NCBI GenBank assembly: GCA_022448165.1
Contig: JAKVAS010000001.1
Span: 1 to 40,912, forward strand
Source: Crocinitomicaceae bacterium
GTDB lineage: Bacteria > Bacteroidota > Bacteroidia > Flavobacteriales_D > Crocinitomicaceae
Length of the DNA stretch: 40,912 nt
Direction: 5' to 3'
Shown one piece after another: positions 28,204 to 39,195 of this stretch; positions within the stretch are counted from its first letter, which is position 1, and every line of letters starts with the position of its first letter. The translations under genes were made by a program, and so were the position numbers. Below the pieces are notes generated by a model. The model had not been told where the DNA came from, ran no database searches, and worked only from the letters and a program-made list of their open reading frames with translations.

Positions 28204-28404
28204 TTAATCTCTATCTGATAGTTCATCCTTAATCTCTTTCAAGGATGAACGCATATATTTTCCAAGCTCCTGTTTAATTTTAGTCCCTAATTTACCTTCA
28301 GCTCTTCTTGACCAATCACTCTTGTATCTATACGTATCTGCTTCAAACAAACCGAGGGCTAACAAACGTTGCTTTAAACCACCGTTTTTTGATAAAAACC
28401 ATCT
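28204..28404 (-). CDS. Coding-like tail in the -1 frame after the RlaP-like gene
   Basis: Downstream of and overlapping the nucleotidyltransferase stop, the minus strand stays open for about 60 codons in another frame: NGGLKQRLLALGLFEADTYR, then SDWSRRAEGKLGTKIKQELG, and ending SSLKEIKDELSDRD. It is charged, helical and protein-like, but has no suitable ATG. A run of six As at 28385-28390 lies at the crossover. A slip of one base there would join it to the nucleotidyltransferase (FYQK-NGGLKQ), giving about 410 aa. Deleting one A would instead give a 64-aa ORF from an ATG overlapping the gene end. It may be a slippage product, a separate small gene or a sequence error. Confidence 0.5.
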   Translation of the reverse strand, partial: RWFLSKNGGLKQRLLALGLFEADTYRYKSDWSRRAEGKLGTKIKQELGKYMRSSLKEIKDELSDRD

Positions 28405-29438
28405 CTAATTCCAATCAATAATTGGTTAATATTCTCCATATGTGGAAGTTCAGGAAGGTTTGATATCTCATACAAATCATTCAACTCCATTTTTAATGCT
28501 TCGGCCTCTTTTAGCAAGTCATCGTATTCGAATTTACCATCTTTAATATCCAGTAAGTACGCTCTGTCTCGACGCTTCACATTTACTTTTCCTTCCAAAG
28601 CAATTTCCTTTGCCATACGTAATAATCGAAAGGTATGCATCATGTTTTTCGAATCGTAGTTCTTTCCATGATTCATGGTTGTATTGTAACGATTTTCGTT
28701 TCGTTTAGCAACCCAATCCCAATATTCTCGATGCTTTCTGCAATATATTGAGTAACCATCTTTATTGAAGAAGAGCAAAGAAAGCACCTCTTCCCCCTTC
28801 GGAATCATACTTAAGGAAACCTCATTGGACTCACAGCTTTTCACGATTCCTTTGTACGAGATTTCAACGCTATGAAACAGATTATAGCAATCTTTCATAT
28901 GAGGAATACTACTCAAGCCGCAATTCTCTTGAAGTAAATTTGATTTCTGTAAAAAACCCACAGCTGGTATCGACTTCCCTTCATGATACACAAAACAAAA
29001 ATCAAGTACTGACTTTCGTTCTTTCTCTACAGGATTGACAATCTTCTTCTCTAATCCTCTGGCCTTCTTAATCTGTGCATAGGCGTAATTGGCAAAAGAG
29101 TTTTTACACTTTTTCGAAAGGAATATTTCCATTTTTATACGATCAAACAATGAATCTTTGTACAAGACACACTCTTCAGAAACGTTAAGTAATTCCAAAA
29201 TATTTGGATTGTTCTTTCCACAGAGTTCAATGAATTTATTGAGTTCGTAAAACACGACATCATTCGTTTCATTGTTAATTTGACTGATGTAATTCAACGA
29301 GTAATATTGATATTTCGGAAGTATAAATACACCCCGTATGTCAATATCAGAAAAGGGCGTATCTAATCCATACGCCCTGCTTCCGCTGATACATTCAAAA
29401 ATAATATGTCCTGATGCTCTTAATTCTTCAAGTGTCAT
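28374..29438 (-). CDS. RlaP-like nucleotidyltransferase (PF10127), copy 1
   Basis: A member of the DNA polymerase beta nucleotidyltransferase superfamily of the YcgL/RlaP type, linked by genome context to RtcB RNA repair. The 354-aa product has the active-site pattern GSRAYGLDTPFSDIDIRGV (GSR...DxD) at residues 18-37 and a third acidic residue expected near NDVVFYELNKF. The C-terminal half is helical and basic (YNTTMNHGKNYDSKNMMHTFRLLRMAKE), suited to RNA binding. It follows copy 2 with a 4-base ATGA overlap, so both copies are coupled. The reading frame ends QKTVV just after a run of six As, beyond which coding-like sequence continues in another frame. Predicted to add nucleotides or NMP to RNA ends (inference). 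Confidence 0.85.
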   Translation of the reverse strand: MTLEELRASGHIIFECISGSRAYGLDTPFSDIDIRGVFILPKYQYYSLNYISQINNETNDVVFYELNKFIELCGKNNPNILELLNVSEECVLYKDSLFDRIKMEIFLSKKCKNSFANYAYAQIKKARGLEKKIVNPVEKERKSVLDFCFVYHEGKSIPAVGFLQKSNLLQENCGLSSIPHMKDCYNLFHSVEISYKGIVKSCESNEVSLSMIPKGEEVLSLLFFNKDGYSIYCRKHREYWDWVAKRNENRYNTTMNHGKNYDSKNMMHTFRLLRMAKEIALEGKVNVKRRDRAYLLDIKDGKFEYDDLLKEAEALKMELNDLYEISNLPELPHMENINQLLIGIRDGFYQKTVV

Positions 29439-30181
29439 TTTACTAGTTTTAAAAACAAAGCATTGAATGCTTCTAATTCCGCCTTGCGACTTTTCACTTC
29501 TGACTTCAACCGATTATTCTCATCCACCACTTCTTTGGCTAATGCAATCAACCTCGGATTTACATCTTCTTTTCCTTTCTCTTTACACTCGCTTTTCAAT
29601 ACGATCAATTCATCTAATAGTCGTTGATCTTCCGCACTAACCAGTGCATATAGTTCTTTAAAAAGTACTGGAGGCACGATTTCCTTGTTGCGGATCCATT
29701 TTGCGCAAAGCGTTGTTCGTATTGCATAGAAGAAATTTTTCAAGGTCATTTCTTCTGATCCTAGCAATTCATCAAAGCCTTTATTCATGCTGTGATAGTG
29801 AAAAAATCCAGCTACGGGATTAAAGTTCTGAAGTGCAAGTCCCTTCAATTCTTCTAATGCGTTTCCCTTATCGATATATACAATGGGGGAAAATAGCCAT
29901 CCTAAAAAGGAAGCATTCGACTTTGCCAATAATCGAAGTGCTTTTCGAAGGTCCCATCCGGAACCATCTAGCTCATCTTCTGTCATAAATTGTATCGTAT
30001 CAGAAGATTCCCATAAGTTCAAATAATCTTCCTTTGATTGACGGTACACAAATCGGATATCATAATCCGAATCAGGAGATGCAAAACCCCAGGCTCTACT
30101 TCCAGATTCTACCGCAAATAATATTTCTATTTCTTTCTCTTTTTCTACTTCTCGTAGTTTTTCTAATATTCTTGTTTTCAT
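29435..30181 (-). CDS. RlaP-like nucleotidyltransferase (PF10127), copy 2
   Basis: A 248-aa paralogue-type nucleotidyltransferase. The catalytic signature is ILFAVESGSRAWGFASPDSDYDIRFVY at residues 20-46, with DxD at the end. Two further family blocks are GWDLRKALRLLAKSNASFLGWLFSP and FHYHSMNKGF. A coiled or helical tail (VVDENNRLKSEVKSRKAELEAF) closes the protein. It is shorter and more canonical than copy 1 and overlaps it by four bases. Two different copies in one operon suggest separate steps or end types, or a heteromer (inference). A GACACT/AGTGTC hairpin lies in the short leader upstream (about 30202-30231). Confidence 0.88.
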   Translation of the reverse strand: MKTRILEKLREVEKEKEIEILFAVESGSRAWGFASPDSDYDIRFVYRQSKEDYLNLWESSDTIQFMTEDELDGSGWDLRKALRLLAKSNASFLGWLFSPIVYIDKGNALEELKGLALQNFNPVAGFFHYHSMNKGFDELLGSEEMTLKNFFYAIRTTLCAKWIRNKEIVPPVLFKELYALVSAEDQRLLDELIVLKSECKEKGKEDVNPRLIALAKEVVDENNRLKSEVKSRKAELEAFNALFLKLVK

Positions 30182-30244
30182 AGTAGTTTCTTTTAATTAT
30201 TCGACACTATTTCCAAAGGATCAAAAAGTGTCCAGTAAAATGCT

Positions 30245-30784
30245 CTAAGCGCGAGCACATTTCAAATAACTTATCTCTATTAATTCTCCGCTCTTAAAAC
30301 ATTCAATCTTCTCTTCTAGGTTCAAATTCTCGAACGTCTTTTGGATTCGTCTTCCAAAGATCCTTACTTCATTATTTAAATAGGCCCTGTTGTAACCGTA
30401 ATAGGTAGCCCCATAATCTAATAGACAAGAAAGGCTTTCAAAATGATATAGCAGCTCTTCAGGCTCCTTATGATCATAGTAATTCGCGATCGTACTTATC
30501 CATTTTTCCACTTCAAATGTATGTCCTTTCTCCTCCATTACTTTAGCAACATGCTGAGTCTGATAAATCAAGAACTCTTCTCTACTGAAGAATCGAAAAC
30601 AAAGTGCTTCCAACTCCTGAAAAGAATCTCTCGTTTTCAAATTGACCAGTAAGATCTCCAAAACAAGTTCATTCTCCAAGGCATTTTTAATGACAAATGA
30701 ATCACTGTAAAGCCAAGCTTCAAATTCTTCCATAGAAATAATTCCGACTATCACATTGAATACGTTTTCTTTTAGTTTTTTCAT
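30245..30784 (-). CDS. Hypothetical protein of the RNA-repair operon
   Basis: A 179-aa soluble, acidic, mostly helical protein that I do not recognise. It begins MKKLKENVFNVIVGIISMEEFEAWLY, has a middle part FFSREEFLIYQTQHVAKVMEE and ends ESGELIEISYLKCARA-like (KSGELIEISYLKCARA). No catalytic motif, metal site or membrane segment is visible. It lies 27 bases after the Cys-rich small protein and 63 bases before RlaP-like copy 2, all on one strand, so it is probably cotranscribed with rtcB. The EEFEAWLYSD opening recalls some small immunity-type proteins, but I would not name it so. Confidence 0.72.
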   Translation of the reverse strand: MKKLKENVFNVIVGIISMEEFEAWLYSDSFVIKNALENELVLEILLVNLKTRDSFQELEALCFRFFSREEFLIYQTQHVAKVMEEKGHTFEVEKWISTIANYYDHKEPEELLYHFESLSCLLDYGATYYGYNRAYLNNEVRIFGRRIQKTFENLNLEEKIECFKSGELIEISYLKCARA

Positions 30785-30811
30785 AACTCATTTATTTCCG
30801 AAAGAATTAAT

Positions 30812-31183
30812 TCACCAAAGCGGAAACTTGCTTACTCTATCTCCGCAAATTCCTACATAATGTTCCCATGAACACTCAGTAATAATAATTCCCATTTCGT
30901 AACTGCATTTACCGCATACAATGGTGAAATCTTCCATATTTGAATATCCGCAACAGCCATATAATCGCTTGCCATGTGAGGTAAGTATAACATTAAGTTC
31001 TCCCTCTCTCACTAAAAAACTCAGACGCAAACGGCCTTGCATTTCAGCTTCCTCAGCATTCGCAAACCTTCCGTATGGAACTAACTGCTCTTCTTCTCTA
31101 AACTTTAAAGATTCAACCGCAATTTTCTGTAAAGGTCGATTTGTTACCTGATGGTTACATTGTTTACAATACAATCTCATCAT
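30812..31183 (-). CDS. Small Cys-rich (putative zinc-binding) protein of the RNA-repair operon
   Basis: A 123-aa cytosolic protein with two possible zinc sites: MRLYCKQCNHQV at the N-terminus (CxxC), and YGCCGYSNMEDFTIVCGKCSYEMG near residues 73-97 (CC and CxxC). Between them is a beta-rich stretch (LRLSFLVREGELNVILTSHGKR). Zinc-ribbon folds often bind nucleic acid, which would suit the context, but no family is recognised. It starts three bases after the rtcB stop, so it is almost certainly cotranslated with RtcB. Either of two adjacent ATGs could be used. Confidence 0.75.
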   Translation of the reverse strand: MMRLYCKQCNHQVTNRPLQKIAVESLKFREEEQLVPYGRFANAEEAEMQGRLRLSFLVREGELNVILTSHGKRLYGCCGYSNMEDFTIVCGKCSYEMGIIITECSWEHYVGICGDRVSKFPLW

Positions 31184-31186
31184 TCT

Positions 31187-32620
<1,434 letters not shown>

Positions 32621-37136: not shown

Positions 37137-37350
37137 AGGAGTTGTTTTAGTTTTTTATGAGTAAAAGTATGTATATTGATCGAATACAACTATGTATTAA
37201 TATGGTTCAGAAAAAGCAAAAGATAATGAGGGAAAAGAGTTTCATTTAATCAAATTAAGCACTATTTTAATGTGACGCTATTATGATTAAGTCGTTAAAA
37301 ATTTATTTTCTTTTGAACCGAATCTGTATACGGATGTATTAGATCTTGAG

Positions 37351-37367
37351 GTTCATAATAAGTGAAC
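37351..37367. promoter_or_regulatory. Inverted repeat upstream of the RiPP-type operon
   Basis: GTTCA-N7-TGAAC, 24 bases before the precursor ATG. It is a possible operator; no clear TAnnTTTG box is seen nearby. Confidence 0.3.
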
Positions 37368-37391
37368 TTTATAAACATTAAAATATAAACC

Positions 37392-37682
37392 ATGTCTAGA
37401 AAAAAAGTATTGTTAATAGGTTCAGGGATTCTTATGGCCACTGCAGGAATGGCGGCCAACACTCCAATGATTGAAAATGTCGATTTGGGTAATTCATTCG
37501 ATCATAAACGTCAATCTTTCGAGGCAAACGAAATTCAAGTCACAAACGACATTTTCACACCTTCCGAGCTTAATTGTGCTTATGGTGGAGGAAATTTTTC
37601 CCAGCAAAGACCTCCCCTACAAACCAAAGCACAAAAGAGAAAGTATCGACGCAAAGCTAAAAGGGCTCAAAGGAAAAAGTAA
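37392..37682 (+). CDS. Candidate RiPP precursor of the MNIO operon
   Basis: A 96-aa protein in the precursor position, two bases before the MNIO gene. The N-terminus MSRKKVLLIGSGILMATAGMAA is a Sec-type signal peptide, as in bufferin-type precursors. An acidic-polar segment follows (residues 25-58), then SELNCAYGGGNF with the only Cys (C62) and a triple Gly, then a basic tail (residues 79-96) with twelve Lys/Arg. Known MNIO enzymes modify Cys or nearby residues, so C62 is the likely site, but most bufferin-like peptides have several Cys. No family match is recognised. An overlapping ORF in another frame is a shadow. The peptide could alternatively be an exported partner that is not modified. 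Confidence 0.75.
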   Translation: MSRKKVLLIGSGILMATAGMAANTPMIENVDLGNSFDHKRQSFEANEIQVTNDIFTPSELNCAYGGGNFSQQRPPLQTKAQKRKYRRKAKRAQRKK

Positions 37683-37684
37683 TA

Positions 37685-38485
37685 ATGAAATCACCCCTTG
37701 GTTATACGCTTAGACGAGATATTGCCGACCCGCTTTTAGCGGGTCATTTTGCTCCCGACTTTCTGGAACTTGCCCCTGAGAATTGGATCGGGTTAGGAGG
37801 TATTTGGAAACGAAAACTCGATCAATTAAATGAGCAATTTCGTTTTACGGCGCACGGCTTGTCTCTTTCGATTGGCAGTCCTGAACCAGTAAACATTGAA
37901 GGTCTAAAAGTCATTAAACAATTTTTAGATGATTACAACATCGATATTTATAGCGAGCATTTGGCATTTTCAAGTATCGATAATGCTCACATGTACGAGT
38001 CAATGCCTATTCCTTTCACGATCGAGAGTCTTAATCACATCGCCGAAAAGGTTAGGGTTGCTCAGGAAGTTTTAGAAAGATCACTAGTTCTGGAAAATGT
38101 TTGCTATTACATACTACCAGAATCTGATATGAGTGAATTGCAATACATAAAAGAGCTTCAACAAATCTCCAAATGTGGTCTATTACTAGATGTCAGTAAT
38201 GTATACGTTAATGCCAAAAACCATGGGTATTGTTCTCAAACGTTTTTCCGTGATTTTCCCTTTGAGCATGTCCATTACGTGCATGTTGGAAGCTATGACA
38301 CCAATCAGCCCTCCGTAATTTTTGACTCCCATGATCGTGCAATTGACAAAAACACACTTTATGATTTATTAAAAATCAAAGATGAAATCCCCTCAAACGT
38401 ACCCATCTGTCTTGAGCGAGAAAGTAATTTTGAACCTTTAGATGAATTGGTTAATGAGTTCAAAGGTGTTAGAAAATTGTTGTAA
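37685..38485 (+). CDS. MNIO-family (DUF692) multinuclear iron oxidase
   Basis: MNIO enzymes use two or three iron ions and O2 to modify peptides, for example converting Cys to oxazolone/thioamide or thiooxazole. The 266-aa product keeps the set of ligands expected for the TIM-barrel core: H57 (FTAHGLSLSIG), E91-H92 (YSEHLAF), E137-N138 (LENVCYY), D169 and N172 (LLDVSNVYVN), H197/H200 (VHYVHVG), D214 and H216 (FDSHDRAID), and E244 (CLERESN). All look intact, so an active oxidase is expected. Its start lies two bases after the precursor stop, and its stop overlaps the start of the DUF2063-like gene (TAATG), a compact precursor-enzyme-partner operon. Confidence 0.93.
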   Translation: MKSPLGYTLRRDIADPLLAGHFAPDFLELAPENWIGLGGIWKRKLDQLNEQFRFTAHGLSLSIGSPEPVNIEGLKVIKQFLDDYNIDIYSEHLAFSSIDNAHMYESMPIPFTIESLNHIAEKVRVAQEVLERSLVLENVCYYILPESDMSELQYIKELQQISKCGLLLDVSNVYVNAKNHGYCSQTFFRDFPFEHVHYVHVGSYDTNQPSVIFDSHDRAIDKNTLYDLLKIKDEIPSNVPICLERESNFEPLDELVNEFKGVRKLL

Positions 38486-39195
38486 TGATTTCAGAAAAAG
38501 ACCATATTTGGCAAAAACAATTTGCGCGAAATATCAGAAGAAAAACCCCCGATTCATCTGCAGTATATCAAAAGATGGTCAGGGATAATATTCAGGATAA
38601 TTTGATAAATGTATACCCCATTTTGTCTCACCTTTTAGGCGTGAAAAATTGGAATAACTTGGTTGATAATTTCATCGAAAAACACTCTTGTCAAAGTCTC
38701 GTTTTTTGGCAATTTCCAGGTGAATTGTATGACTACCTGGTCACTGGAGAATTAGCGTTGAAAAAAGAATACCCTTTTATTTTAGACTTGGCTCTTTATG
38801 AATGGAGTATTGTAGACTTATATTTTAGAAAGGATCATCCTGCCATATCGAGTGCGTTTGATGGCACCTTGAAAACGACACCTGTTTTTTCAAAGGAATT
38901 CGAAATATTTCATTTCAACTATCCTGTATTCGATAAAAACTGGAAAAACATCACTAATAAGGGAAATTACTTCTTGATGATCTACAGGAATCAAACAAGC
39001 TTTGAAGTAGAATTACAGCAATTGTCACCGTTGCTTTTCACTATTTTATCCAACTTACAAAACCCTGACATACAAAGCATAGAAGAACTATTAGATCTAA
39101 TTACATCTGAAACTAATTTTAAGATAAATGAGCAGCAGAAAGTTGATTTATTAATGTTCTTAAAAGATTTGTACTCAAAAAAACTGATTGCTTAA
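38485..39195 (+). CDS. DUF2063/BufC-like partner protein of the MNIO
   Basis: A 236-aa cytosolic protein. The N-terminal half matches the DUF2063 (HvfC/BufC) pattern: QKQFARNIRRKTPD, VYQKMVRDNIQDNLINVYPILSHLLG, and FWQFPGELYDYL near residue 80. The C-terminal half has a beta-rich domain (FEIFHFNYPVFDKNW, NYFLMIYRNQ) and a winged-helix-like end (LQQLSPLLFTILSNL, FLKDLYSKKLIA). Such partners bind the precursor and present it to the MNIO enzyme in known systems. Translational overlap with the MNIO gene supports that role. A DNA-binding label in some databases for the N-terminal domain is not supported by context. Confidence 0.85.
   Translation: MISEKDHIWQKQFARNIRRKTPDSSAVYQKMVRDNIQDNLINVYPILSHLLGVKNWNNLVDNFIEKHSCQSLVFWQFPGELYDYLVTGELALKKEYPFILDLALYEWSIVDLYFRKDHPAISSAFDGTLKTTPVFSKEFEIFHFNYPVFDKNWKNITNKGNYFLMIYRNQTSFEVELQQLSPLLFTILSNLQNPDIQSIEELLDLITSETNFKINEQQKVDLLMFLKDLYSKKLIA

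Follow-up and report, generated by a model that had tools for sequence, protein, structure and literature searches.

Near one end of a 40,912-nucleotide stretch of DNA from a marine Crocinitomicaceae bacterium (contig JAKVAS010000001.1 of assembly GCA_022448165.1; hereafter the window), three plus-strand open reading frames of 96, 266 and 236 amino acids form a compact operon (Table 1). The stop codon of the precursor gene lies 2 bases before the ATG of the MNIO gene, and a TAATG joins the MNIO gene to its partner such that stop and start codons have one base in common. The genes on either side lie on the opposite strand and encode an LRR/AhpC-TSA protein upstream and a DUF5122/Por_Secre_tail protein downstream (Pfam). 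Open reading frames and Pfam matches at the locus place no transporter, sigma factor or methyltransferase in the operon. A preliminary description of this DNA had proposed exactly such an arrangement, a tightly packed signal-peptide-like open reading frame, MNIO enzyme and DUF2063 partner with 2-base spacing, a TAATG overlap and none of those three accessory genes. Gene coordinates, Pfam matches and iron ligands agree with it, and the spacing and overlap can be read in the sequence. There is good support for reading the locus as an MNIO RiPP operon, and its precursor is as atypical as claimed. Elsewhere in the window, a possible RNA-repair cluster occupies 28374-32608 on the minus strand: the gene for RlaP, a member of the RNA repair polymerase-beta family (28374-29438), lies close to that for the RNA ligase RtcB (31187-32608), and two open reading frames (248 and 179 amino acids) stand in between.

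Table 1 Features of the operon, in window coordinates
Feature	Position	Strand	Evidence
Conserved upstream segment, likely promoter/5′ UTR, apparently moving with the operon	37279..37389	+	blastn and MAFFT versus G015
Precursor gene, 96 aa, one Cys (C62)	37392..37682	+	ORF; homologues in G015, G003 and G123; dN/dS 0.15
Sec signal-peptide-like N terminus, aa 1-22, possible double role as recognition leader	37392..37457	+	by eye
Leader region, aa 23-54 (..DLGNS..)	37458..37553	+	same region of L004 precursor matched by EGKCG-leader profile
Conserved core motif PSELNCAYG, aa 57-65	37560..37586	+	residue invariance in four sequences
C62 codon, predicted modified residue	37575-37577	+	ELxCAY context
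Lys/Arg-rich C-terminal tail, aa 66-96	37587..37679	+	composition; fastest-evolving part
MNIO (DUF692) maturase, HvfB-like	37685..38485	+	PF05114; model matches 3bww, TglH and MbnB; nine Fe ligands
Partner, DUF2063 plus NGO1945 C-terminal domain (PME-type-1, HvfC-like)	38485..39195	+	PF09836, PF22106; model matches 3dee and TglI

The window MNIO matches PF05114 with an E value of 5.8e-73 (245.8 bits against a gathering score of 25), and its structure model (mean pLDDT 88.3, with a low-confidence loop at residues 99-105) matches 3bww, TglH and MbnB in fold comparison. We transferred the nine published Fe ligands of TglH (PMC10880893) through an alignment of the TglH chain with a profile built from 26 MNIOs. 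The corresponding window residues H57, H92, E137, D169, N172, H200, D214, H216 and E244 are identical in 40/40 aligned MNIOs, and the earlier claim of an enzyme with all expected iron ligands thus holds at 9/9 positions. Alanine variants of HvfB at the third-site residues N175, D242 and H244 are reported to be inactive (PMC13419390, preprint), and their window counterparts N172, D214 and H216 are all present. The sequence HVGSY in place of HMAGH had raised the suspicion of a lost ligand, which we rejected: the first His is the one that binds iron, and the position of the second is Gly in TglH and Phe in cpMbnB. A second MNIO was not found in the window's genome (86.5% complete).

The partner protein scores 58.9 bits against PF09836 and 35.3 bits against PF22106, above the respective cut-offs of 27.2 and 27, and its structure model (mean pLDDT 88.4) matches 3dee (NGO1945) and TglI. 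It has the combination that defines a PME-type-1 partner, a DUF2063 domain with a C-terminal RRE-like domain.

A family of CAYG precursors

The preliminary description had proposed searching Bacteroidota genomes for the precursor beside DUF692 genes; this search yielded three further genomes with a conserved P-x-E-L-x-C-A-Y core. The homologues lie directly 5′ of MNIO genes in G015 (precursor locus L003; MNIO locus L011, 89% identical to the window MNIO), G003 (precursor locus L004; MNIO locus L012) and G123 (L100), which belongs to another genus of the same family. The closest named relatives are Crocinitomicaceae MAGs. Precursor, MNIO and partner occur together at 4/4 of these CAYG loci, with precursor–MNIO gaps of 2, 2, 17 and 3 bases and an MNIO/partner overlap in each. 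A precursor profile built without G123 recovers the G123 precursor at E 2.8e-19, and the window and L004 precursors match at 42 bits (phmmer). Among 240 family genomes, 16 encode an MNIO at E ≤ 1e-40 and 6 have a precursor-profile match at E ≤ 0.01, of which 4 are counted as CAYG; the matches in G020 and G032 (E 0.004 and 0.007) were excluded as parts of open frames of 765 and 352 amino acids. In wider samples the CAYG profile matched in 3/399 genomes of the order, all known members, in 3/395 of the class, comprising its own genome and two EGKCG precursors, and in 1/395 of the phylum, its own genome only. Viral contigs held no relative of the window MNIO, and plasmids no CAYG precursor match. 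Our literature search found no mention of the motif letters together with the family name; a paper found on MNIO RiPP precursors in Bacteroidota concerns ChrH-like systems.

Alignment of the four CAYG precursors shows that P57, E59, L60, C62, A63 and Y64 are invariant, and all four share the P-x-E-L-x-C-A-Y motif followed by a Lys/Arg-rich tail. The 32 residues following CAY in the window precursor contain 13 Lys plus Arg and zero Asp or Glu, and the tails of the group carry 13-15 Lys plus Arg per 30-33 residues. The window and L003 precursors contain one Cys, and L004 and L100 contain three, two of them adjacent, which makes the modified residue less certain in those two. The 96-residue precursor is real and under purifying selection: homologues occupy the same place in three further genomes, and dN/dS between the window and L003 precursors is 0.15, calculated with our own Nei–Gojobori script. 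Small sub-region counts give 0.05 for residues 55-66 and 0.33 for residues 67-96, and residues 1-22 differ at 0 nonsynonymous and 5 synonymous sites. The enzymes are likewise constrained, with dN/dS of 0.07 for the MNIO (window versus L011) and 0.13 for the partner (window versus G015). A DUF3769 match of the precursor (E 0.013) fell below the cut-off and was discarded as noise.

Searches of the family also returned other MNIO-associated genes. A 281-residue open reading frame with no Pfam match lies 15 bases past the partner gene in G123 (L117 5992-6837) and may belong to the operon. In G104 and G105, more distant MNIOs of the same family follow a protein of 258 residues (L101 663-1439, L102 666-1442) that is rich in Cys (NGCGG...) and may represent another type of precursor. 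In G121, the gene two positions 5′ of a divergent MNIO (L105 3245-3676, minus strand) encodes a small protein whose C terminus consists of Cys repeats (CSSCSSC..).

Relation to EGKCG-type systems

EGKCG-type upstream open reading frames (at least 3 CG dipeptides) precede the MNIO at 76/101 related loci, a set that takes in duplicates, contig ends and distant MNIOs. The CAYG precursor group is homologous to these known EGKCG precursors (oxazolin/captophorin, HvfA type), as judged by profile comparison in both directions. The two EGKCG precursors found by the CAYG profile in the class sample stand in front of MNIO genes in G425 and G540 (E 4.9e-6 and 2.8e-5), and no other precursor among the 395 genomes reached the threshold. 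Because these matches cover the core as well as the leader (profile positions 12-89 and 5-88), a Lys-rich composition common to both groups may contribute to them. In reverse, a profile of 21 EGKCG leaders matches the CAYG precursors L004 (E 1.9e-6) and L100 (4.2e-4), the best of 10,000 shuffles reaching 0.52. Among 2,682 background open reading frames, only copies of CAYG precursors and a broken EGKCG-type leader present twice (L021/L096) scored equally high. With the signal peptide removed, only L004 remains significant (0.0024). The window and L003 precursors have no direct match to this profile, and the homology of the window signal peptide and leader to Buf_EGKCG/captophorin precursors runs through L004 and L100. 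An E-[LM]-x-C context surrounds the first core Cys in 15/21 EGKCG precursors, as in the CAYG group, and EGKCG repeats occur in 0/4 CAYG precursors.

The enzymes point the same way. In a 40-row tree, to be read with a warning of long branches, the four CAYG MNIOs form one side of a branch with support of 97/99 and fall within the Bacteroidota EGKCG-type MNIOs. The grouping survives removal of the window and L011 sequences (100/100) or of L100 (97/95), both reduced trees also lacking L089. Precursor homology, the shared Cys context and the single enzyme clade together indicate that the CAYG precursors apparently arose by loss of EGKCG repeats, retaining a single cysteine and acquiring a basic tail. 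The earlier suggestion of a new type of MNIO product is thus partly supported: the core is new, with its lack of repeats, single conserved ELxCAY cysteine context and basic tail, and the precursors as a whole and the enzymes belong with the EGKCG family. Homologous loci lacking the 96-residue gene, envisaged in the preliminary description, occur in another form: related loci carry a different, repeat-bearing precursor.

Curated models place the operon close to HvfABC and outside its cut-offs. Against the HvfB equivalog NF003818 (cut-off 360) the window MNIO scores 277.4, and L011, L012 and L100 score 273.7, 340.7 and 324.9, all below, whereas the EGKCG comparators L014 (388.4) and L023 (390.1) pass. 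Against the HvfC equivalog NF050145 (cut-off 142) the window partner scores 112 and the other CAYG partners 117.2, 83.8 and 86.5, again all below; one EGKCG comparator also fails (133.9) and another passes (145.3). We have therefore not filed the operon as HvfABC. Two further observations concern EGKCG-type loci. In Brumimicrobium mesophilum (L021 5470-5766; L096) an EGKCG-type leader is out of frame with a core stretch that contains Cys, apparently because the precursor is broken or the assembly is in error. HvfB-like MNIOs are also present on contigs labelled as Chlamydiae/Parachlamydiales MAGs (L034, L064), with a leader-like precursor ending in EGKCGEGTCKG located 5′ of the MNIO in L064.

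The oxazolin operon hvfABC(X) of Haemophilus influenzae shares the combination of precursor, MNIO and partner and the signal peptide of the precursor, and among NCBIfam models those for HvfB and HvfC give the window enzymes their highest scores; the window operon differs in its lack of EGKCG repeats, single Cys, basic tail and absence of an adjoining DoxX gene. Captophorins (fontiphorin, gonophorin; Buf_EGKCG) share homology of the precursor N terminus, an MNIO with a DUF2063-type partner and a small residue after Cys, but have multiple EGKCG sites, where CAYG precursors have none. Bufferins Buf1/Buf2 (BufABC) likewise combine a signal-peptide precursor, an MNIO and a PME-type-1 partner (PMC12452194); by contrast, the window precursor has no DUF2282 match (Pfam) and a single Cys where bufferins have 4, 6 or 12, and the BufB model scores the window MNIO at 198 bits versus 277 for HvfB. 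The unassigned signal-peptide precursors with 1-18 Cys of Antoine et al. (PMC12452194) resemble CAYG as small few-Cys open reading frames before MNIO genes. Methanobactin MbnBC and TglHI share the enzyme fold and iron site, and the window partner model matches TglI. Their precursors are described as lacking signal peptides (PMC12452194), unlike the window precursor with its signal-peptide-like N terminus, and the window MNIO is distant from MbnB and TglH (18-19% in fold alignment).

Location of the operon in two genomes

Positions 37279-39193 of the window are 85% identical in DNA to G015, and similarity ends on both sides. In G015 the operon lies directly downstream of ABC, HlyD and OEP genes; in the window's genome the counterparts of these genes lie on a different contig, C68, and are followed there by another gene. 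The operon thus occupies different places in the two genomes. The upstream segment is 86% identical (blastn) to the stretch directly before the G015 operon, and its identity of 92/111 (MAFFT) exceeds fourfold-site identity within the operon (100/158). Fourfold-site identity across the operon is in turn higher than the 125/358 in four other gene pairs (p 3e-9), a small comparison set drawn from two places (ABC, HlyD and OEP; DsbA). Other G015 matches in the final 20 kb of the window, where 40/81 candidates were scored, comprise four of 214-901 bases at 66-71% identity and a further two, each only about 70 bases long, at 77% and 91%. An operon 85% identical at different places, against 66-71% for the other long matches, points to an apparent recent horizontal move between lineages. 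Transposase-type genes lie just 3′ of the operon in G003, and we found no convincing repeats or element ends at the operon borders in the window. The ABC/HlyD/OEP genes before the L011 operon were considered as a dedicated exporter and rejected as a conserved part, since their counterparts in the window's genome sit on another contig. These comparisons suggest that the three genes are able to spread as a unit.

Predicted product of the CAYG operon

Our best explanation, to which we assign a probability of roughly 0.6, traces the operon to the EGKCG (oxazolin/captophorin) family and sees in it a minimal MNIO RiPP system with Sec export, in which C62 is oxidised. The MNIO/DUF2063 pair would recognise the signal peptide and leader in the cytoplasm and oxidise C62 in ELNCAY; the likeliest reaction is a four-electron oxidation (-4 Da) that yields a 5-thiooxazole. 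Sec would export the peptide, an assignment made by eye together with that of the signal-peptide-like N terminus, and signal peptidase would cut off the N terminus. The mature product, located in the periplasm or outside the cell, would be basic and have a single site. Several preprint results are consistent with this predicted chemistry and leader recognition. HvfBC and FonBC, with related precursors, form 5-thiooxazole from Cys (PMC12668002, PMC13419390), and HvfA without its signal sequence is less modified (PMC13419390). In FonBC double variants Ala alone could replace the Gly after Cys (PMC12668002), a tolerance that the window NCAY fits, as the CAYG motif has Ala after Cys; a motif with Cys-Tyr was modified once by FonBC (PMC12668002). 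Against this explanation, the same preprint reports that FonBC left a substrate with one EGKCG repeat unmodified (PMC12668002). The HvfB and HvfC scores of all four loci, below the cut-offs, and the merely indirect link between the window precursor and the EGKCG-leader profile also count against it.

The CAYG enzymes may also act differently from their relatives. All four CAYG MNIOs have E105 (3/36 others), S106 (0/36), G202 (0/36) and the C-terminal L266, residues that the other 36 enzymes lack or seldom have; G202 lies two residues past the Fe ligand H200. The window and L011 enzymes have extra changes at conserved sites, several near ligands, including S203, Y204, S215, D217 and E246. These changes, together with a very long branch, mean that CAYG chemistry may differ, and the same operon logic could produce another outcome at the CAY site, for example one involving Tyr64 or a non-thiooxazole Cys product. 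Invariance of Tyr64 in 4/4 precursors, changes next to an Fe ligand as well as within or adjoining the low-confidence loop, and the chemical variety described for the MNIO family favour such an outcome; retention of all nine ligands and the 5-thiooxazole made by the related HvfB and FonB weigh against it, and we regard it as possible but doubtful. It is improbable that the 96-residue protein is simply an exported basic protein while the enzyme pair acts elsewhere. Modification of the precursor is a prediction, and the pair includes the sole MNIO found in the genome, such that other substrates are conceivable, but the position and spacing of the gene, its homology to known substrate precursors and the conserved Cys context all argue for a substrate. 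Decay of a copper-RiPP operon, with the repeats gone and the remaining genes being lost, would account for the lack of EGKCG repeats in all four precursors and the long enzyme branches. Selection already weakens this reading, dN/dS being 0.05 for the core, 0.07 for the MNIO and 0.13 for the partner; with intact frames in four genomes and a conserved upstream segment as well, we consider it very improbable.

On the preferred reading of a single oxidised C62, a role for the CAYG peptide as a multi-copper sponge is unlikely, since it offers a single site and no EGKCG repeats, whereas members of the known family usually bind copper through many such cysteines. Its basic tail suggests that it binds a polyanionic surface. 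Going further, and only tentatively, the operon could be a horizontally moving cassette from the copper-RiPP family whose product is exported, strongly basic and equipped with a single warhead, modified at Cys62 and perhaps Tyr64. Its role would be other than metal storage; it might, for example, attach to polyanionic surfaces or act on nearby cells. Because FonBC, the homologue that has been studied, does not accept a substrate with one repeat, the CAYG peptide would constitute a small natural substrate for probing how MNIO enzymes choose a cysteine. The family itself is seemingly caught in the act of changing its product, keeping leader and enzyme pair while a multi-site copper core gives way to one cysteine and a basic tail.
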